From contig JACYXH010000826.1 in the NCBI GenBank assembly GCA_026745465.1, positions 8,047,224-8,111,223 on the forward strand: a DNA stretch of 64,000 nucleotides, in the 5' to 3' direction. Source of the DNA: Lota lota. Lineage: Eukaryota > Chordata > Actinopteri > Gadiformes > Lotidae. Of the stretch, positions 3,201-61,400 are shown one piece after another; position 1 is the stretch's first letter; each line of letters begins with the position of its first letter. A program made the position numbers and the translations under genes. The notes below the pieces were generated by a model. The model was not told the DNA's origin and made no database searches. It saw nothing but the letters and a program-made list of their open reading frames with translations.

Positions 3201-5653
3201 GGACCAATATAAAAAGCAGGGAGCCCTAGCAGTGAGTATAGAATAATTTCGTAGCATTCAGAACACAAATAATTCTGGTGGTTGACTTGCATAGTTACCT
3301 TGAGCCGCAACAGCCTCAACTTTCTCTACTTTAACTTTGGTTGATTCACCTAAAAGGGAGGGAATAAAGATAAAGGCTTTATTCTGAGGTATTGATACGG
3401 AGCATGACTAGAACATCTCACATTAGACAATACGCAAAGCAGCCACAGTAACGTACAATAACACACCCCTCAGGTGCCACACAGAATACTCCCAAGTGTG
3501 GAACAAATTCCCCAGTGTCTATTTATAAGTCATATTGTCCACACGAGACCGGCAGAACTCAACAACAGCTCCTCAGGAGTTTAAGACAGGATTACATCTA
3601 GACACCAAATTAGACTTTAGTTAAATCTAAGCTTACATGTGAAGCATACATGATGATTCACATGTAAGCTGTTAGTGTGTAAAGGAGCACATTTAGACTA
3701 AAGCCATGTCTCATTCCTGCTTGATGTGAATTGACAGGGTTGGCCTAAGAACTAGTTACGTTACCTTTCTTCTTCTTCTGGGCTGCGGGGGCCTGGACTG
3801 GGGCGGGCTTGGGCAGCTCCTGAGGGGCACTGTTGGACGCGTTGCCTCCTCCAGGACTGGCGGAGCCGTCGCTGGGGGTCTTTTCCTTCTTGCGCTGCTC
3901 ACGCTTCTCCTTGTTGCTGACCTTCGTCTCCCACGTGCCTGAGGAAATATCCCACATGCACGGTGCAGAATTAGGATGGAAGTAGCCCAGAGGGTAGAGT
4001 AGCTGGGATTACCTTCCAAATATGCCATGGATTAGGAGATAATGGAATAGATTGAGAACCTGTGGTTTCCTTCTTTTTTTTAAAGCTGAAAACCGTGTTA
4101 CAATTTTAATTAAGTCTGTGGGCCATTTATTAAAATGGTGCAGCAACCTACTTTCTGAAAATAGTTTCAAATTTAAAGAAACTAATTTAACAGGGAACCA
4201 CACTGTAATAAAGGAAGCAGTAAATGGCCACAAAAGACATGGAATAAAAGTAAGAAAATCACAAGTAACCCTGATTCATGACACCTCACCTTCCTCTGGC
4301 TCTTTGCCGTCAGCAGTCGCCGTCTTGGTCTCTTTGACCACCAGCTTGGCCTTCTTCTTTGACTTCTTTACCTGGAAAAACAATTATAGATGACCTCCAG
4401 AAACTATACAAAACTACAGAAGAGTTGAAGAGAGCAGCACCTTGTGTCGAAACCAGCCATAACGGAACATGAGACCTCAAGATGAGCCATAGTAGCCAAT
4501 CAAATCAGGGGGTTTAACTCCCGTCTATATATAAGTGAAATTGCATATGACATCCACAACCCCTTTCTAAACCTGAACTGCGGTTCATTCTTGTAATCAG
4601 TTCTGGCGTTACAACTGAAACCGTGTTGTTATAAATTGGTAAAAAATAAATGTCCACTGTGATTGTACATTCCTGCTGGCAGCATGTGATGAATTGATCA
4701 CACCTGACAGTGTCCCAAGTTAGGAATGAGCCTCCAAGATTATGCTGCATCTGCAAGTTAGGATGGTAACCAAATACTGCCAGCTGGCCTGGCCACATCA
4801 CTACAACACGACAGTGACCAGTGGTGGGCGGGCGGCCGGGAGAGATGTGTGGGGGGGGGGGGGGGGGGGGGGGGGGAAGCAACTTATGCTTTTTGGGAGG
4901 AATTTGTTAATGCTGCATATATTAAAAAATTATATATGGATATAAAAAGAGTACAGTCCCTCAGCTTAATGAAGCAGATTTTTTTTTTTTTATTGCTACC
5001 GTAAATTCTTACCTCTGTTGCGTTTTCAGTCTTGCCTTGCGGTGGAGGTGACTGGTGATGTGGCACAATCTCTTCTGACACTGTGGCCTCCTCTAGGGCT
5101 TCAGGAACAGCTCTCCCGTTTGGCTGAGCCTCCTGGGCTTTCTATATGCGAATAAGTGCACAAAATAAGGTAGAGATCAACAAATGTCCACGTCGTATTG
5201 CAAATGATGCACACTTATCATGTTTAGCATCAGGTCAAGTAAGGCCTGGCGCCAGCCTGCTTGAGCTAACGTTACTCCTGCTAATGGCAGCTAGCGCCAG
5301 AGACTGCACATTCAGAGAGGAGTTACCTTCTCAGTCTTCTTCTTCTTCTTCTTCTGATCCTCGGGTTTGACGGCGGGCTTGATGCCGTCAGGTTTGACTC
5401 CAAAGCCACCGTCCACTGCGGCTGGTCGTCTCTTGAAGAGAAAGCGGCAGGCCGAGGCCCACAGAGCCACCAGGAGCACTAGACCGATGCACGATGCTAA
5501 GAGGATCACCCATGGCGGAATCAGCTCCGGCTTCAGACCCAGATCCACGCCGAGCTCCGAGTGGAGGAGCTCTAGGCCGCTGGACAACGCCTCTTTCAGG
5601 CGGTTTGTGAGGAGCTTGACCTGCCTTGAGGTGGCTTCCTGGAAATTCTCCAT
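208..5653 (-). CDS. mtdh: Metadherin (LYRIC/AEG-1), 3' end beyond the left window edge
   Basis: Metadherin is a single-pass membrane and nuclear scaffold that binds the nuclease SND1. Coding exons read 5653-5327, 5141-5013, 4371-4290, 3938-3765, 3349-3299, 2775-2644, 2401-2321, 1601-1456, 1068-964, 858-739 and 334-208; phases agree and give about 491 codons. Human metadherin has 582, and the last Lys-rich exon is not in the window. Residues about 46-70 form a hydrophobic membrane segment starting PPWVILLASCIG, followed by basic KRR and poly-Lys tracts. Exon 4 carries the family motif TWETKVSNKEKREQR. Exon 8 carries DWNAPAEAWGNY, equivalent to the SND1-binding peptide whose two tryptophans insert into SND1; both are present. 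The start ATG at 5653 opens MENFQEATSRQ, in place of the human MAARSWQDELAQ. Exon 9 has two possible donors; CAG|GTAAAG at 964 keeps the phase. Paralog a or b cannot be decided. Confidence 0.93.
4851..4876. repeat. Poly-G run in an mtdh intron
   Basis: An unbroken run of 26 G on the plus strand lies in mtdh intron 2, with a G/C-rich lead-in. On the transcript it is poly-C. Its length in an assembly is likely to be unreliable. Confidence 0.9.
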
Positions 5654-6809: not shown

Positions 6810-39635
<32,826 letters not shown>

Positions 39636-46570: not shown

Positions 46571-49500
46571 CTAAGCTGGGACAGAGAAAGCAGCCCCTGA
46601 TTGGCAGGATTTGAAGAAATAAGGGACCAGAGAGAAGTTCTTGAGGTTGATCTCCTGCGTGACGCCGGTATCCTGCATCTCAAACCTGAGAAGGAAACAA
46701 AACAATGCCAGGTTACAATTGAATACAGTGCTACAACAAAAAAGGAATAACCGCATGCTCATTTTTCTATATAACGAAACACCCTGTTTGAGCCCACTTA
46801 AAAACATTTATAAAGCCTTCTGGCTCACTCCTGGTAGATACTTATTTTTCCATTTAAGAGTGGGGCTAGTTGCCATTCTGCTTTCTCCACTCGCAACAAT
46901 CAGAAAACTGATCTGCATGTATTTCGATGTCTTTCACTTTTCATCTAAAATAAGTTGTTTTAGTGTTTGGTTGTCCTTTAAATGTTGGAACTCTTACCAG
47001 TCGCTGGTGGAGATGACATAGTAGACTGGGGGAGAGGGTGTGTCGGCCCCACAGCCCCCCATCGGCTGGCCCAGATTGAAGCTCCCGGCGTTGGCAAACA
47101 CCAGCCAGTCTCCCGTGTGGAGCTCAGGCAGCACACAATGCTCCACTACCTGGTCCATGTCATCTCCGGATGGACCCCACAGGCTGCAGCTGAACACCGG
47201 CTCGTCTGGGGTCGTGTTCTGGGAAGACCGAAAATATAAGGTACTTTGATTGCTATGGCAAGGACAATGGCACCACACATGGACGCACAGAGAGACAGGT
47301 CGAATGACGGCTCGGTGGTGGTGCTGCAGGGTGGAAAATGTAGTATTTGCTGATCCCACCAAGTTTGCTGGTGATTACTTTCAAGTCTCCATTTGTGCTA
47401 CTTTCACTGCTGCCATTTGTGTTCCGTTTTAATCTTTTGTGTACATAAGTTTGCTTTGTCCTCATTATTATTCATACTTTGTTCATCATCTAATCCAAAA
47501 CTAGGATATGTTGGATATGTTATCTAGGCGTCAGATCTCTGAACACTACTAGTGCTGTTTGCACAACCTCTTCTCGGTAATCAATTAAGTACTATAATAT
47601 TAATGACTGTGGTATTTTTACAGGATATATACCGCTTGCGTAGTTGCGTTGCAAACATTCTGTACCTTCAGGCGACGCAGTGACCTATCCCTGCTGAAAT
47701 GACCACCACCCAGATGCCTAGAACTTGAACAGTTACATCTTCCCCCAGTAGGGAGGCCGTTTCCTCCATTCACCTTGTGAACCGATGGCACGGGGATCAC
47801 GGTGTCAGTGAGTTTGCAGGAGAAGGATCCGTATACCCCCTCATTGATGTAGTACTGAAACTCTGGCTCATCATTGGCAGACGGCGCGTCTGTGGTGAGA
47901 GGGTAGAAGAAAAAGACAGGAGGTTAAAGCTAGTGGGGGCAATATGGAGAAACCAGCCAGAGTAAGCTTTATTTTGAAAGTATCGAAACGTAAAGATCAC
48001 ACCCCTCCATTCAGGCAAAGCCACTCCTCCAAAACACGTGACTTGCTCGCTAGCTTTAGCAATAGGTCTGCCTAGCCTTGTGGAAGAGTCCTGTTTTGTG
48101 CATGGTTAGAGTACATGCAGACATCCAGGTAGGTAGTCAGACAGGTAGGCTATCCAATCAATTAATTTGGGCCAAATGAAATGATTAGACAGGCTTATTA
48201 CAGGCCTGTGACAGCCACAGATACAGTATTTTCTTTATTGATTGCTGTAGGGATGTTAAGAGAATTTGAACAAATATGACAAAAATGTTTCTAAAATCAA
48301 TTGCCTACCCTAGCTTTAATAGAAAGTAAAAACGTTTATATTGGGTCGGATATATCCATAAGCCATATACGTATGTTTAACTGGTTTTCTTTGACTTGAC
48401 ACAAGCAGAATTTGGTTGCCTTTAAATTGCTTAGTATTGGATTCATTCTGGGGGCTTCAATTGAGTTTTAGGGTTTCATTCTTGAAGAATCTGAGCAGAA
48501 CAAGTCATGACTCTGACCTCGTTGGTGTTCCTGCAGATCGCGTGCTACCACCCTCTTGGAGATGATGTTGACGGCCAACGTGAAGGCAGGGGCCACCAGG
48601 TAGCTGCCGGGCTCGGCCACGATGGAAACCCCCGTGGAGGGAGGAAAGTACAGGTCAACCACGGACATGACAGCCCTGTTGATCTGAAGCAGAGAGAAAT
48701 ACATGAATACAAATGCAGCATATGATTCAGGTAAACAGTGATTGATGCATTACAAGTCTGTCATGTAATTATATTTGTATGCATCCAATACTAATTATTT
48801 ACACACAATAGATACCTTTTACGTATTATGATTTTTTTTCTAACCATACCATTTTAGTTTAGCTCTCTCCTAAGTTACTTGATGTGTAATCATCCTCATT
48901 TAAATCCTACCTCTCAAATGCATCTCGTGTTCTGCACTTCGTACTGCTATTTTGCATGAAAAACACCCCAATAAATAGTTTGATTTGATAGCTTTTTTCA
49001 TTAGAGCTACTTTGCTTTTACATCGTTTAGATGTCAACACCACACAGACACACTGCCACAGACCACAGATATTTAAAGATAGGCCCTGACGTAAGAATAA
49101 GGGGAAGGAAAGCCTCACTGACCTGTTTGAGCTGGGTCTCTGAGCCACTGATCCCGTCTCCAATGTCCACGATGTTCATAGTGAACCCCATATCCTCCTG
49201 GGAGAATGGGATGAACACCATGAATAAAAGAAAGGCATCTATTGGCATATGACCGTAGGAAAATATGAATAAATATAAAATCTAAGAAATACATAATAAT
49301 ATTAATACAAATAAGTACCGATTTTTACATATTAATATAAATATGTTTAACATTACATAAAAAATTAATAAACAAACCAAATACAAAAACTGTCTTTGAA
49401 AACTCACCGCCATGTCAAACACACAACGGGCATCAGAGATGGCGTTAGCGTACGCCTGCTCATTATCACAGCCGGAGATGTTGAACCTGGTAAGAGGGCA

Positions 49501-51604
49501 GGGATAATAGAGGTTAGTAACAGTACTTTCATCGGCATAGTACATAGTCCAAACAAACTGAGGCGCATTAAAAAGCAGTGGCAAGCAAAAATAACAAACA
49601 CAGCTTTTACTTAAAGAAAAGTTCAAGAGTGCTACTCTCTTGATATCTCTACAAAAAAGACAGAGACTGAGGAGAACCATGGAGGACATGTCAGGGGCCA
49701 GGTTCTACTTCCTTGAGGTACTGGGGTTTCTATGTGTCCAGTTCCATGTCCATGTGTCCTGAGCAGGTCTTACCTGACTCCCACCACCTGGATGCCCAGC
49801 TCCTTGGCCCTCTCCAGCAGGCGTCTGCAATCCTTTAGGGAACAGCCTAACCTCACGCTCATCTCCTCCCGTCTTCCGGACGCCTCCGTCCACACCTGCA
49901 GCAGCAGTCTTGGAAAAAAAGAATACTAAATCAATATACCAAAAAGATGACTTTAGGAAGGTTTTAAAAAAAAGAAAATGGTTATGGACATTAAAGAAAA
50001 GATGGTAAGCCATACAGCTGAGTAAACTTGTATTTAATGGGCTAATCTTTTTAGCTCTTTACCAGGAAAAATGCACCATGAAAAAACAGTTCTCAGAACA
50101 TCCGCAGCAGCAGACATTGTTCTGGTTTATATCCGGTGAGCATAATCAACCGCACAGATGGACAAATTATTAACGGATGCCAGCATTTACGTCTCAGAAT
50201 CTCAGTGGGTGTTAGTTTAGGAAGAAAATAAGGGTTTTCATTATGTACACCGGATTTTGTAAATCCTCAAAGTATACTGGTGTTTTCATATTGCTAATAG
50301 AATTGTACTTAAATCAACATTCAGGTAGCAAAACAGACAATAATGATATGTAACGGATTGAGTAGAGGAGTGAGGTTTATCATAGTGGACATGTCAACTC
50401 TGTAACCCATACATGATGGGTGTTGGTCATTACCAACAGATCTTTCTGGTCTTTTAGAAGGCACTTACTTGGCACCCGGATGACAGCGGGCGATCTTGCG
50501 TAGCTCCGCCTCGTTATCACACACGAGGAGGTCCACGCTGCTTTTGGCGGCGTACTTAATGTGGGAGAGCTGTTTGCAACCACCGCTGTAGATGATGTCT
50601 TCCGAGGGAACACCGTGGCTCTGCACCATCTCCAGCTCGGACTGAAACAAACCCCCAGAGGTAGACAAACACGACGGGACGTACACGTTACTATGGCAAC
50701 CTAAAAGGGAGACCTGGCAGGAACCCGGGAGAGCACAGGCGGGCGCTCCATTGCGTACCATGATCGCAGTAAGATACAAAGATAAAACACAAGGAAAATG
50801 TTGTGTATTTGGAAGTGTTGCCAAAAATGCTGTGCCATTTTGCATCAATAGATGTTGCTTCGTTACCATATTGCAAAACCACAAGAACCACAACCTTGCC
50901 CATCCTTTGACCCAACAATCAACACGTAAAATATATAAATGTTATTCGCTTACAAACCCTGACTGCTCTGGTATGACTCATTTATAAATCTTATACCGAT
51001 TCTCTTAAGTGACATTTCAACCCTTTGTAGTACCCTTGTAAAGATCTTACGACACAACAAACAGCCAAACACAGACCGGATAGAACATGAGTAAGATGAG
51101 CACTCTCAGAACTAGGTTACCTTGTTTGTGCACATGAATCCTGTTCCAAGGGCGGCAAGAACTTCAATGACCGCTGGGCTGCTGTTGCATCGGACAGTGT
51201 AGTAGGGCCGAATCTGGGGCACACAGGTTCGCCAGCGAACATGCTGCCGCATTACGACTCCCAGATCGGCCACAAAAAATGCATTCTTCTCTGCCTAAGG
51301 GAGCAATGAAAAAGAAATGTAGTATTAGTCATTTCTAGTCAGTGATATATTTCAAAGAAATATACTTAAACGACGGTTGACTTATTATACGTGAAAGTTA
51401 CTACATTCATCACGAATCACGTTTCTGAAATATGTTGCCGTGTCGACGCAGTAAGAAATACATTTTAAGTACAAGCGCTCCACATTGTTCCAAGTGCATT
51501 ACCAGGGTCTGTTCAGAGATATGGTGGTCGACAACATGGTGGAGGAGCGTGCCTCCGTCCAGCAGGTCGATGGAGTACTGCGGTTCATCATTCAGTCCTT
51601 TCAT
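46571..51604 (-). CDS. azin1: Antizyme inhibitor 1, complete
   Basis: A catalytically inactive ornithine-decarboxylase homologue that binds antizyme more tightly than ODC does, freeing ODC and raising polyamines. Coding exons: 51604-51503, 51294-51121, 50641-50469, 49908-49774, 49486-49408, 49197-49123, 48683-48518, 47889-47774, 47218-46998, 46685-46571; phases agree, 451 residues (human 448). It begins [19 protein letters not shown], like human MKGFIDDANYSVGLLDEGT. ODC active-site residues are altered: the PLP lysine motif reads YYTVRCNS (Lys69 to Arg), the phosphate loop reads DIGDGISG instead of DIGGGFPG, and FHVGSG has become FNISG. R277 is Ser in AEPGSYLV, and the catalytic Cys360 is Gly in [11 protein letters not shown]. 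This excludes an active ODC. An upstream in-frame ATG at 52761 would add 15 residues, but its context is weak (T at -3), while the chosen ATG has A at -3. Paralog a or b is undecided. Confidence 0.95.
47924..48319. mobile_element. TTAA-flanked MITE (family A, copy 2)
   Basis: A 396-base non-coding element in an azin1 intron. It begins TTAAAGCTAGTGGGGGCAAT and ends TTGCCTACCCTAGCTTTAA, with TTAA at both edges. The internal GCTCGCTAGCTTTAGCAATA block matches the copy at 15023. Same orientation as that copy. Confidence 0.75.
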
Positions 51605-52623
51605 CTTCTCAAATGACCTCCGCTAGTCCAACAAACATGTGGGATACGGATAGGCCCAAGTATTTCTGGTTTGCCCCCTGGGGTCCTAGACTAGATGCAA
51701 ACAACTGTGTAAAAAAGTAAGACCACTTTCAATGTCAATAACAAGATAAATATTTCCAAGATCAGGATGGTTAATATCTGCATGGGTGTTTTAAACTTTT
51801 ATTTAAATCGTTTCTTTGGTGGACAAGAATGTGAGTGAGACAAGCCATTTTTCAGCGAGTAACCAATCGGGAGCACAGAATGGACATAGCGGTATTAGCG
51901 CTTGTACTGTGTGGAGGAGGCTCATTCATCCGAATGGCCACCAGGAAAACACAGAGTCTGGGGCACAGGGTTCGTTTACTTTACCACCAATTACCCCACA
52001 CAATCACCCATAATCCCTGTGGTGGTGACCCGTAAAAGGCTGCTTTTGATGGCATTAACCAAGGTACAATAGAGGCGGCATCAGCGTCAGATGGCAGCGT
52101 CGATAATGTTACACAGTGCGTCAGCAGGACAGAGCTGTCCACTCAGGAACAGATGTGAAGTGACTGTGTAGATTTCTAGGGATCTGTATGTGGCTGTAGG
52201 TATAATGCGAAGAAACTAGTTGTCTGACCAATTGAATGTATTCAAGTGAACCAAGAGGTGAACCAAACTATTGAATCAAAGTGTAAAAAAAAAAATGGTT
52301 CACTGTGTGAACCATGGCACAGAACATAACTGATCATTTACAAAAGTAACATAAATGTCTGACTAAATCTATAAGGAAATACCCACAAGCATGTTAAATG
52401 AAAGCCATGACTGTGACAGTCCTCCAAAAAGGCATAAAAAGTTAAATCAAGTATTAAATTAGTTAGAAGAAGTAGCTGAGACAAAATACTATTTTATAGT
52501 TGAAATATGACAGAAAGGACAGAATCTTCAACCGAAAATATAATTGTTTGGTCGAAAATGCACGTATAATTAATCACATACATTTGATATTACCTCATTC
52601 CTCCTCCAATATTTGAACATGAA

Positions 52624-52651: not shown

Positions 52652-52767
52652 CCACACATTAGAACATACCAACACATTTTCAAGAGTTTTGTAAGAAGAG
52701 GACGCATTATCGTTACATAATATGAGATACCTACATGGAGGAGTCCGGTGATGGGGCTCATCCACCA

Positions 52768-53461
52768 TCAGCTGGGATCCCAAGGAGGCTCGGCGTTGAA
52801 GTCAAACGGCTCTCGGTAGAGAGCCTTCCCTAAGCCTTCTGGGTAGTTGTAAGCCTGCAAACAAACCCAGAGTTTAGGGCTATAAGAAGCACACGTATTT
52901 TGAAAGATGATATATGCAAATGTTGATGGAAAACGATGATCTAATGACTGGACCGAGAGTTATACCGAATATGTTTGACGAATATAATAGGTTAACATGC
53001 CCTACGGGGTGAATAAAAGTTGCCCAGATTCACCTGTTATTTTAACACATCCATACAACACGTATGCCAATTGTGTAATGCAATAGATATCTACAGCAAT
53101 TTCATTTTAAACTGTGTGGCGAGTGAGTCATACATTTGATTTCTGCCCATTAGGATGAGGTTCACATTATAAGCCGTGAAATTACAACTATGCAGCCTGC
53201 CAAGACGGCCTTTCTATTTCTACACATCACATCGGACCACGAGAGTATGGTTTTCAGCATCGATAAGTATGTATATTTATTGAATATATATAACAATGTC
53301 CGCATGTTGGATGCCAGGCACCCTTCTGGCCAGAAAACCAGCCGAAGCCAGTTTCATATCAACAACATGCTAATGGAGGACAACTGGAGCTAACAGCGTC
53401 TACTTACGTGTGCAGAAAGCCCAAAGTTGGGGGTGGATCGCCTTTTCTTTTTGGGCGGAAT
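52768..53461 (-). CDS. azin1: azin1 upstream conserved coding region (uCC), AUU-initiated regulatory peptide
   Basis: The azin1 leader holds a spliced reading frame of 46 sense codons: ATT at 53461-53459 to the donor CAC|GTAAGTA at 53408, then TTTGCAG|GCTTAC at 52854 to TGA at 52770-52768. The peptide starts (I/M)PPKKKRRSTPNFGL and ends YREPFDFNAEPPWDPS. An in-frame TAA lies seven codons before the ATT, and no AUG or other good near-cognate codon lies between. Established work on vertebrate AZIN1 (Ivanov, Loughran, Atkins and colleagues) describes an upstream conserved coding region that starts at AUU and stalls ribosomes at Pro-Pro-Trp when polyamines are high. Queued ribosomes then favour the poor start and repress the main frame. 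The PPW here is at 52788-52780, four codons before the stop. The stop is 51 spliced bases before the main ATG. The assignment to this family is firm; function in this species is inferred. Confidence 0.85.
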
Positions 53462-53960
53462 TTTTAAAGAGTAGTGGGGTTTTTAAAGAATGAAATAATT
53501 AATGCCATGCACGTTGGGTATCGCGGCGAAAATGGGCTACTTCGATTGCTTTTCAAACCAGCTATGGACCGTCACCATGGATGTATGAAAGTACCGGAGG
53601 CGTTGGCGTCATACCCAGGCGTTCTCGTCTCGCGGCGGAACGCCTTGAACGGGATGCTCCCGATAAGCGTTTTTGGCGAGAGAGAGAGGGCGGGACATTC
53701 AGTTACTTGGGTTAAGCGGCGAGAATCGGGAGAGAGGGCGGGATTTCCAATAGAGATAGATATCCGTTTCTGTAACATGTTTCGGACATTGCTTTATCGA
53801 ATTATTCGTCACTTCTCCATATGTATTCCCCTTGTCGTTGTTGTGGTTGGTGTTGTTGTTATTCTTTTCATATTCTTATTCTTCTCAATCCAGGGACCGT
53901 TAATTGACGTCATTGGAAGTAAGAGACCGGCAATAGCGTTACGGTAGACCGGGATTTGGC
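53408..53960 (-). promoter_or_regulatory. azin1: azin1 leader exon 1 and CpG-richer promoter region
   Basis: Leader exon 1 ends at 53408. Upstream, to about 53.96 kb, CpG dinucleotides are clearly commoner than in the flanks, with GGCGGGA-like motifs and inverted CCAAT boxes near 53746 and 53911. The transcription start was not located. If it lies beyond 53508, a 14-codon AUG frame (53508 to TAA at 53466-53464) would also precede the AUU. The 157-codon plus-strand frame across this region is not supported as a gene. Confidence 0.5.
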
Positions 53961-56850: not shown

Positions 56851-56945
56851 TTCAAGTTCAAGTTCAAGTTCTTTAATAAGTCAAATGTACAACAAAACAT
56901 GCAGTAGCAGTTATTGCTGGCAATGAAATTAAAGTGTTCCAAGCT
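56851..56945 (-). mobile_element. 3' tail of a LINE (L2/Rex-like)
   Basis: On the minus strand this reads AATTTCATTGCCAGCAATAA, then GTACATTTGACTTATTAAAG, and finishes with three tandem AACTTG units. That is the form of L2/Rex-type LINE 3' ends, which finish in a short tandem repeat instead of poly(A). Only the extreme 3' end is present. Confidence 0.5.

Positions 56946-56948
<3 letters not shown>

Positions 56949-57027
<79 letters not shown>
56949..57027. repeat. (TG)n microsatellite, intergenic
   Basis: About 79 bases of perfect TG/GT beside the LINE tail. A shorter interrupted (TG)n lies just before the tail at about 56820-56850. Confidence 0.95.
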
Positions 57028-57032
<5 letters not shown>

Positions 57033-58423
57033 GAGTCGAGGAATTTAAAGGGGACAGTAAAGTGTTTTTGAGTGTTGCTGGATACTGTGTACATTTGTAA
57101 AGTTGTAAACATTCTACAGAGCTGGTCTTCAAACTTCTTTTTGTCCTATAAATACGATGGATATTTATAGTTTTTAGTTTAAACGTAACATACAACATTT
57201 TAATAAAATACATAAAAACACAAGTTCAATATTTTGTTAACCTTCAAATTGACAACTGATTAGTTGCATGGACAAGCGTCTTCCTCTGCAAAGTGGCTGA
57301 TTAAGACCTATGGCAGGCGGTGATAACATCATGCAGACTGGCCTATGGCCAGCCATAGGGGTAAAAATCAATCCTGCTGTTTGATCTCCAGGGTTGGCTC
57401 CACTCAGACCAAGCATTGTGTTGGAAACAATGAACCCCAGACCCACTGAACTGTAAACATATCCCATCGGCAGCATTTTTCCAAGACTTCCATGAAGGAG
57501 ACACCCAAGTTCAGGAAGCCCGAGTCCACCTTATCCAATTTTGGAAAGTCAAATGTGTCTTGTGTCTGACTGGGAACTCAACGCTGACTGTAGCCTTCGG
57601 TGTCCAGTACAGTTATAGCTGCTGTCAGAGAAATCTACACACTCACTAAATTCCAGACAGCAGTTCTAATTGTGTACCTTCTTGGAAGGGAAAGGTAATA
57701 TGTTCAGCCTACCAACAATTACTTTTACAGATGTTCAATAGTTACATTTATTGGTGGAGCTGGAGCCTTATCTGATTGCAGTATGCATCCCAACCAGAGG
57801 TGGACGCTAGTGAGATTAGTGGGTGACGAGAGCGCATGCTTGAGTGCGCAGAGAGGCCTTCCTGTTTTACGGAATAATCAGGTGACCTAAAGCTGCTATG
57901 ACAAGACCTCAAGAATTGGACTAATGGCAAATATGAATACTTGCAAGCTTTAAAAAAAACCCGATATATTTTCCTGACAATATCCTATTGGTTTCTTATC
58001 CAGGTAAGCACAAATAGTGAACCAACAACGAACACACTGTTTGTCGCTAGTACATTGGGTCAATTTACTGCAGCTAATCCTTCCGTGTAGTTACTGACCA
58101 GCGGGTTTCTGACAGCTTCACGTTGCACCCCGCAGTGTATGGTTGTTTATCAAACTCAATATTAACAGCAAATGGTAAACACGACCTACAATCACTTCAT
58201 ACACGCTCTACTGTTAATGCTGTTGTCAATATGTCATCCAGAAACGGGGCTAATCATGTTTTGTGTCCCTTGACAGCTTTTGAGGCTTCTGTGCTTTGCA
58301 AAACATCTAGGAATACAGTGGTTGCTCTATTACATGATCAATGACACAAAGGCTGATTAAAATGGACTTCGTCTCACATGCTGTTAGTTCAACAAGCCCA
58401 CTGGTCGGAGGAGCGCTGTAAAC

Positions 58424-61400
58424 ATGACAGAGTTCTGGTTGATCTCGGCGCCTGGAGAGAAGACATGCCAGCAGACCTGGGACCACATGATGGTGGCCAC
58501 CACCCGCACCAACAACCTGTCCACCAACCACAAGTTCAACATCCCCGATCTCAAGGTTAGCAATACCCATTTTATACAGTTACAACTATTCATTTAGATT
58601 TAAAACATTCAACACCATTATCATAACACACCATGATGGATGAGCTGCTCTAAAGCATTCTAGTATATAATAAATACTTTGTCGTCATGGTAACGTTACA
58701 TGTTGCTTTGATAAAGCCTTCCTCTCTCTACAGTACCTTGGTTGGTTGCTGCTTTGGTCATTCATTGCTTTGCATTGCAAGGTCCAGATGACCCCACCTT
58801 TTTTTACACATGAGGCCTTAATATTGTCCTGGAACTGTTCCCAACGCATGAAGGGCTTCTGACAAAAGAGGCGCCGTCCTAAGCACATAGGGCCCCCTGG
58901 TTGTCACCGCTGGCTGATTAAACCTCAGATACCGCTGTTCAAATGCAACACCTCCTTGTTTCAAAATGACCCAACATTACTGGACCAGAGATTTTCTTCA
59001 AAGCATTTTTGGTGCTGATGGGCTCTTTTCCTTTTGTTGCAGGTGGGGACTCTGGATGTCTTGGTTGGGCTGTCGGATGAGCTGGCCAAACTAGACAGCT
59101 TTGTTGAAAGGTACACTGCCCCGCCACCCTCTGTCTGAGTTTGTCTCCTTTTTGTGATTCCATCCCATGTAATATGTTAACCCTAACCCTGTATATGGGT
59201 AGTTTGAACTGTCGATACAGTCCATGTTTTAGCACTAAATTCTCTGACGTAAAGCTTGGACCTACTCTTATTATTTTCCACTTACCTTCCCCTATAACCG
59301 TGAGGAATTTCACACTGGTCTAAAGCTAAGAAGGCACGCAGGCTAAAGTTAGCAATTTACAGTTGGGTGACATGGCGGCGTCTTTCTCAGTTTGGAAAAA
59401 AATATATATTTTAGGCTCATGACTAATGGGCCTCTGGGATGTTTGACACAGAGTTATGTATAGTCTGCTGGAAAAGTTGAGAAATCTCTCTCATAGTTAT
59501 TTACTGACGGCACCGCTGAATGTTTTTACTTTGGATATTACAGAGACAGAAAGTCAAAAATTACATCATGGTTTCACTTTTAAAGGGGATTTTCAATTTA
59601 CAACACTTCTTGGGTCATTTTCTCACCCACCAAGGCTTTTTTGAGCACCCCAGACAGTTTTTAGGTTGCTTGCTTCAATATTCAGATATTTGATAACCGA
59701 GTAAACAACCTACTCTGTCTGTTAAACCTGTAGTTAAACAAACCAGTCTTGTAGCACAATGTTTATTTGCTCTTATTCCAATGATGTGTGCTATGGTGAT
59801 TTATGAAAAGGTTTGTCGCTATGCCATGGCGGTGAAACATACTATTTCTGGAGCACAATGTGTGTCTGCCTATAAATCTACTTTTGATTTTAGGGCTGGG
59901 GATACGTTGTTATAGCAGGATTCCGTGAACTCTTTTGATGTGTGCGCCGCATGTGTGTGTGCTGTTGCCGAGGGGTTTTGACGTCTCCCTCGGCTGTTCA
60001 CAGTGTGGTGAAGAAGGTGGCTCAGTACATGGCCGACGTGCTGGAGGACAGCCGAGACAAAGTCCAAGAGAACCTGCTGGCCAATGGAGGTAGTCCAACC
60101 CCTGCACATATAACGCCATTTAGAGTATATGGAATCTCTATACTTACAATCATTAAGGATTTGTTTTTATGTAATATATCAACTTTAGCTGATCTATGGT
60201 GTGCTACCCAGTTGAAAAAAGATAAGCCAAAAAGTGAACCATTCAAAGATTATTAAACGTTTGCTGTACATAAAGAGACTGTTTACTTCATTCTGACCTG
60301 AAAGCCTTCCGTCCACCTCTTTGCGCCTCCTTCGTGTTTCTTTCAGTGGACCTCGTCACCTACATCACACGGTTTCAGTGGGACATGGCCAAATATCCCA
60401 TCAAACAGTCACTGAAAAACATCTCAGAGATCATCTCCAAGGTAGCGCTCCCACTCAACACAAAATGAACTTTTGAGACCTGGTAGTGTTTAAACGGATG
60501 GCCCCTCCATGGTCAATGTGTGATTCATGCTACTAGGTTGCCATGCTTTGTACCTGTGCTTTGGATACATCATGATGTGTCTGTGGGAGAGCAGGGTTGA
60601 AAGGATGCCTTGTATCCCATTCCTCCTTTCAATGTTCCCCCCCCAGCAAGTGACTCAGATTGACAATGACCTGAAGGCCAGGGCTTCAGCCTACAACAAC
60701 CTGAAGGGAAACCTGCAGAACCTCGAAAGGAAGAATGCGTAAGTGTTTTCTTCTTTGTGTGTGTGTGTGTGTTCTCAAGGGCAATTTTCATAGCATGTGA
60801 GGGTTGTTGAGGATTGATTAGTGTTTACAGTTTCGGTGATGACCAATGCTGTCCTGTACCACTAGGGGGAGCCTGCTGACTAGAAGCCTGGCAGACATCG
60901 TTAAAAAGGAAGACTTTGTACTTGACTCAGAGTACCTCATCACTATGCTGGTGGTTGTGCCAAAGTAAGGAACTTAGCTGTAAAAATAAAAGAGGCATAA
61001 ATATGGCTCTGTTGAATGTATGATTAGTTGATGTAAGGCTGAGCTCTGTTTTAATGGGTCTTCTGTCTTGGTAGGACTGGATATGCTGACTGGCAGAAAA
61101 CGTATGAAACACTTGCTGAGATGGTCGTGCCGCGGTCCACAAAGTAAGTTACACGTGGGTGCAGTTTTGCTGGCGCCTTGATGAGATTTTTTTTATGCTT
61201 GTAACCCATTTATTATTTAGAACCAGACGTGAGAAAATGGGTGATGAAACAAAAATGGCACTATCCTGATCCTGACTTCTAAAGTACATCCTTTTGGAGA
61301 AATGCTTCAGAAAGATTGTTGTTCATGTAACAGCGTTCATAACTCTTACATAACAAGAGAGTTATGTAAGAGAGTTACCTTAAACCAGAAAACCCACATT

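Follow-up and report, generated by a model that had tools for sequence, protein, structure and literature searches.

The upstream conserved coding region (uCC) of mammalian AZIN1 was reportedly described by Ivanov, Loughran and Atkins in 2008 and by Ivanov et al. in 2018. How the element works in mammals is outlined in passages of three papers: polyamines hinder eIF5A at a Pro-Pro-Trp (PPW) motif, the queue of ribosomes reaches back to an AUU codon, initiation there rises, and AZIN1 falls (PMC9082881, PMC11550727, PMC11058473). The review among them calls a G at +4 critical for non-AUG starts and gives the distance from AUU to PPW as about 30 codons (PMC9082881). The HOL1 uORF of yeast works alike but belongs to another family, with a different gene, organism, and motif; as a passage of one paper presents it, polyamines block progress at the motif of that uORF (PS-stop) and the queue represses the main frame (PMC11550727). 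In a literature search of titles, abstract starts, and passages, we recognised no description of an intron inside the uCC or of a fish uCC, and absence in print is not claimed.

Here, we describe a spliced leader frame on the minus strand of a 64,000-nucleotide stretch of Lota lota DNA (the window). Comparison of its sequence with human and paralogous counterparts makes it very probable that the frame is the uCC of an azin1 gene, that is, the known sensor in which AUU, PPW, and eIF5A act by ribosome queuing. The joined frame, IPPKKKRRSTPNFGLSAH|AYNYPEGLGKALYREPFDFNAEPPWDPS-stop, has 46 codons (18 + 28) and runs from AUU to PPWDPS-stop. Its exon 1 part (53408..53461) consists of 18 codons, begins with the AUU (53461-53459; A at -3 and C at +4) followed by a basic segment, and ends CAC|GTAAGT. 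Intron 1 is predicted to occupy 52855..53407, from the GTAAGT donor, the position of which is common to a second azin1 gene (the paralog), to a TTTGTTTGCAG acceptor. Exon 2 then follows the acceptor (TTTGTTTGCAG|GCT), opens GCT TAC AAC, and stays in frame through 28 codons to a TGA stop (52770-52768), so that its uCC part spans 52768..52854. The PPW motif, which is also present in the paralog and in the human peptide, lies at 52780..52788, with Trp as the fourth codon ahead of the stop and three residues after it. Upstream, an in-frame TAA (53483..53485) bounds the frame seven codons ahead of the AUU. There is no in-frame AUG, and a start at another near-cognate codon was rejected because only AAG, AGG, and AAG occur in frame besides the AUU.

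The original prediction had set out a 46-codon spliced frame without AUG, an in-frame stop seven codons upstream of an AUU, and PPW four codons ahead of the stop, and all of these are in the sequence with coordinates and counts right. It had also assigned a basic start (PPKKKRR) to exon 1 and the stalling end to exon 2, and both are present. Its further claim that an intron crosses the frame at a codon boundary (CAC|GCT) finds support in both gene copies and in the human peptide, which runs unbroken over the join. From splice signals and homology, exon 1 and exon 2 of the window leader are predicted to be spliced together as proposed.

Downstream of the uCC, the remainder of exon 2 (52735..52767) extends to a likely donor, CCAT|GTAGGT, and CCAT|GTAAGT stands at the same position in the paralog. 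Exon 2 has an alternative candidate donor at 52731 (GTATCT), four bases beyond 52735 (GTAGGT) on the minus strand. The leader part of exon 3 (51605..51704) starts at 51704 with an acceptor that the paralog has at the same position. The AUU is 274 or 278 nt from the main AUG at 51604, depending on which exon 2 donor is used.

The gene that bears the uCC is most likely an antizyme inhibitor gene, azin1. Its main coding region (46571..51604, minus strand) comprises 451 codons in several exons. The deduced 451-residue protein has a Pfam match to Orn_Arg_deC_N, and its best structural matches are labelled antizyme inhibitor 1, namely 4zgz (E 4.8e-159), which we take to be the human protein, and 3btn (1.6e-157), presumably the mouse protein; ornithine decarboxylase structures rank after them at 2.9e-121 and weaker. 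Moreover, Arg replaces the Lys of VKCN, a Lys that is kept in ornithine decarboxylase and in 4zgz, and Gly replaces the Cys of GP(S/T)CD. We take these two residues to be catalytic in ornithine decarboxylase, and neither is kept in the main protein.

Besides the window gene, the genome (575 Mb in 867 contigs) has a second azin1 gene, located on contig C378, and, on C496, a third locus of the ornithine decarboxylase family. A search of the whole genome with the exon 2 peptide of 28 residues (E <= 10) found two places, the query itself and the second azin1 gene (E 1.9e-10, 88% over 26 residues), and gave no uCC match at the C496 locus. In the window, the first coding exon of a V-ATPase subunit C gene (58424-58552, plus strand; Pfam E 4.2e-08) lies head to head with azin1. 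A near-identical translation is found on the opposite strand in the C378 block, again head to head. Fish genome duplication leaves duplicated blocks, and the two azin1 and V-ATPase blocks fit that kind. The window also contains long (TG)n or (AC)n repeats at about 34310-34460, 38420-38630, and 56920-57040.

The human reference used here is the AZIN1 uORF peptide as printed in a supporting figure legend of PMC9648851. Pairwise alignment found 35 of 46 aligned residues identical between the window uCC and the human peptide (34/46 with gaps set at the splice point), and the score of 180 compares with 0.0 +- 8.2 in 2000 shuffles (z 22.1; best shuffle 36.5). Split by exon, the alignment with splice-point gaps has 11 of 18 residues in agreement for exon 1 and 23 of 28 for exon 2, and exon 1 of the paralog is closer to the human sequence, at 14/18. 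The uCC of the second azin1 gene reads IPPKKRRRFSKSFWPLSH|VYNRYPEGLGAALYREHFDFNAEPPWDPS (positions 4135-4188 and 4948-5037 of the paralog locus, L003) and has the same AUU and CAC| donor. Three lines of evidence therefore uphold the identity given in the original prediction, an AZIN1 uCC: the human peptide match, the agreement of the second azin1 gene in AUU, splice point, and PPWDPS end, and constraint that is specific to the frame. The base of comparison is one genome, with its pair of paralogs, and one printed human peptide.

How the window leader would respond to polyamines can be proposed by analogy with the mammalian system. Once intron 1 is removed, most scanning ribosomes would pass the poor AUU and reach the antizyme inhibitor start. 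High polyamines would hinder eIF5A, and the few ribosomes initiated at the AUU would stall at PPW. A queue behind PPW would then reach the AUU, raise initiation there, and shut off AZIN1 synthesis, and with less inhibitor, both ornithine decarboxylase and the uptake of polyamines would be lowered by free antizyme. For this leader, initiation at the AUU, the stall, the queue, and the response to polyamines are each carried over from studies in mammals. Certain observations count against this explanation. The AUU of the window is followed by C at +4 and not by the G called critical, although the human +4 base must also be C, because the second residue of the human peptide is Pro. The spacing from AUU to PPW is 40 codons in the window copy, compared with 46 in the printed human peptide, about 30 in the review, and 41 or 48 in the paralog. 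Finally, the three AUGs that follow the uCC could themselves repress the main frame.

The first of those AUGs overlaps the uCC stop as UGAUG (52766..52768) and is absent from the paralog. The second (52759..52761) opens, with donor 52735, a 40-codon frame that ends just ahead of the main AUG, and use of donor 52731 would shorten that frame from 40 to 14 codons. The third, in exon 3 (51636..51638), opens the short frame MFVGLAEVI. The window thus has three AUGs between the uCC and the main start (52768, 52761, and 51638), while the paralog has one (MIVC), with one additional AUG inside the uCC in its long splice form. A putative AUG frame, MALIISFFKNPTTL, also lies upstream of the uCC (53464..53508, minus strand), and its UAA ends two bases ahead of the AUU. 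The paralog has a counterpart, MAKLGLFLSFIVAPTTV (L003 4079 to 4132), and in each copy the UAA occupies -5 to -3. This stop and the PTT ahead of it fall within a conserved block, but the AUGs fall outside it, so the upstream frame may be due to chance; alternatively, it may be a feeder uORF. In the paralog, the 85 codons that precede the AUU (L003 4135) in the uCC frame contain no stop but do contain an in-frame ATG. This open stretch is probably promoter DNA.

The surplus of AUGs in the window bears on the rival that survives best, in which the frame is conserved but the sensor of this copy is weak or bypassed, either because the main first exon lies elsewhere or because the extra AUGs dominate, and most of the sensing is left to the other azin1 copy. 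That the window has three AUGs after the uCC, as opposed to one in the short form of the paralog, speaks for such a state, as do the greater distance of its exon 1 from the human sequence (11/18 against 14/18) and the alternative starts and splicing reported for mouse Azin1 in passages of PMC6313458. Nonetheless, nothing disrupts the AUU, the PPW, or the frame, and the two copies agree at 25 of 28 residues in exon 2. We consider a weakened or bypassed sensor improbable.

Whether the frame is maintained as coding sequence was addressed by comparing the two copies. Across the 3 kb around each, matches with E < 0.01 were confined to the main start and two leader blocks, one of 43 bp at the AUU (88% identical) and one of 118 bp that runs from exon 2 past its donor site (82%). 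Four other matches had E >= 1.1. Within exon 2, the copies differ by 12 substitutions, of which 2, 3, and 7 fall at codon positions 1, 2, and 3, and 26 of 29 codons keep the residue or the stop (the shared stop is counted among the 29). Twelve substitutions placed at random would change 8.6 residues on average, and three or fewer changes arose with a frequency of 0.0001, or 0.0009 with transition bias. The resulting dN of 0.069 and dS of 0.591 give a dN/dS of about 0.12. Exon 1 is looser, with 9 of 18 residues kept, dN 0.379, and dS 1.227, although the copies agree at 7 of the first 8 positions. These comparisons omit the extra Arg codon found in the paralog, and the dS values are rough, as they come from 13-31 synonymous sites. 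Purifying selection on the frame is thus indicated between the two paralogs, clearly for exon 2 and weakly for exon 1 apart from the first 8 codons. The original prediction had proposed codon-level constraint as its test, and the constraint is indeed frame specific and strongest in exon 2, over one pair of paralogs and one human peptide as opposed to many fishes. Two results count against the uCC explanation. Exon 1 is held loosely, and the dN/dS ratio of the whole uCC (dN 0.170, dS 0.793) shows no stronger constraint than that of the main coding region (dN 0.287, dS 1.299), the ratios being about equal, where the main value covers six ungapped stretches with 253 of 451 codons and leans to conserved parts.

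Conservation between the copies is not confined to the frame but spans 18 bases upstream of the AUU and continues past the stop to the donor, as might be expected if the blocks were kept as DNA or RNA elements (a promoter core with TTTAAAA, splicing enhancers, or a G2-quadruplex) and not as a translated frame. A polyamine-responsive G2 motif has been described in human AZIN1, according to passages of PMC6067879. The simple G2 pattern that we used, however, has no match in the window leader and one in the paralog, and a G2-quadruplex was rejected as a conserved feature. Moreover, the exon 2 differences favor third positions, and both copies have stops in each of the other two exon 2 frames. Within the frame, 70 of 79 bases are identical, compared with 27 of 39 past the stop, and a DNA function would not account for a peptide match to human that extends over the splice join. 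The frame and the synonymous changes rule against a DNA element, and we regard this reading as very unlikely.

The PPW motif near a stop was rejected as stand-alone proof. Across the six frames of the window, PPW occurs 19 times and is followed by a stop within four codons in 5 cases, the uCC and four others, whereas 20 first-order Markov sequences gave means of 7.6 and 1.3. These other cases are what could be said for a frame that is open, and has a PPW close to its stop, by chance alone. The matches to the human peptide and the paralog refute this reading, which has almost no credibility left.

How the uCC is divided by its intron may matter for regulation. Intron 1 falls between codons in both copies. 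In the acceptor region of the window, two of seven AG sites keep the frame with PPW, 52854 and 52947; with the former, the frame is the one consistent with the human peptide, and the latter would add 31 codons. Three of six AG sites in the paralog do so (4861, 4927, and 4948), and use of 4927 yields GSPVYVQ where the human peptide has GELSDQ. We note that acceptors 4927 and 4948 are 21 nt apart and that the longer form restores a segment resembling the human GELSDQ. As computed for the window, retention of the intron ends the frame at VSRRC-stop with loss of PPW, and skipping of exon 2 gives a frame without PPW that ends just ahead of the main AUG. Because the computed frames lose PPW, such forms would lack the sensor. 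The suggestion in the original prediction that alternative first exons or exon 2 skipping could switch the sensor off is accordingly a possibility only. For mouse Azin1, passages of PMC6313458 report alternative starts and splicing, with splicing affected by polyamines. The discussion of another paper describes a splice form with an early stop that is raised by polyamines (PMC4458265).

What is of moderate interest here is the intron, together with the ways in which the two copies differ. Perhaps the two azin1 sensors were retuned after duplication, a speculation that we put forward as doubtful. The window copy would have lost the acceptor that adds the segment resembling GELSDQ, shortening its track from 46-48 to 40 codons, and gained the UGAUG overlap and two AUGs, and the upstream AUG frame could feed or pace the AUU in both copies. 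If so, ribosomes that finish or leak past the window uCC would meet new decoys, the choice of the paralog among its in-frame acceptors would set the spacing of its sensor, and each of the two azin1 genes would respond at its own polyamine threshold. The differences in AUGs and spacing permit, but do not demonstrate, different tuning of the two genes. The differing spacing and neighboring AUG frames of the copies nevertheless amount to a natural experiment on queue length and decoy starts. Moreover, the AZIN1 polyamine sensor appears to be kept in both azin1 copies, start codon and stall motif included, and the exon 2 peptide is nearer to its human counterpart (23/28 residues) than is the protein under its control (230/432, compared with 4zgz). 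Searches based on AUG miss the uCC, and one large survey took its uORFs from ATG codons only (PMC7530721).

Relative to its paralog, the window uCC has in common the AUU, the CAC| donor, the PPWDPS end, and the head-to-head V-ATPase subunit C neighbor. The paralog differs in its pair of in-frame acceptors, which are separated by 21 nt and would give 54 or 47 codons, and in its additional Arg codon. It also lacks the UGAUG overlap, and its frame is open 85 codons upstream of the AUU. Relative to the mammalian AZIN1 uCC, the window copy occurs in the same gene with the same AUU, an IPPKK-RR start, a YPEGLG-LYRE-FDFNAEPPW ending, and three residues past Trp. It differs in length, with 46 residues against 52 in the human peptide, in its lack of a segment of 6-7 codons, GELSDQ before VYN in the human peptide, and in the three AUGs that follow it. 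The uCC of the window is a known element in kind and mechanism, a well-conserved example and not a new type.
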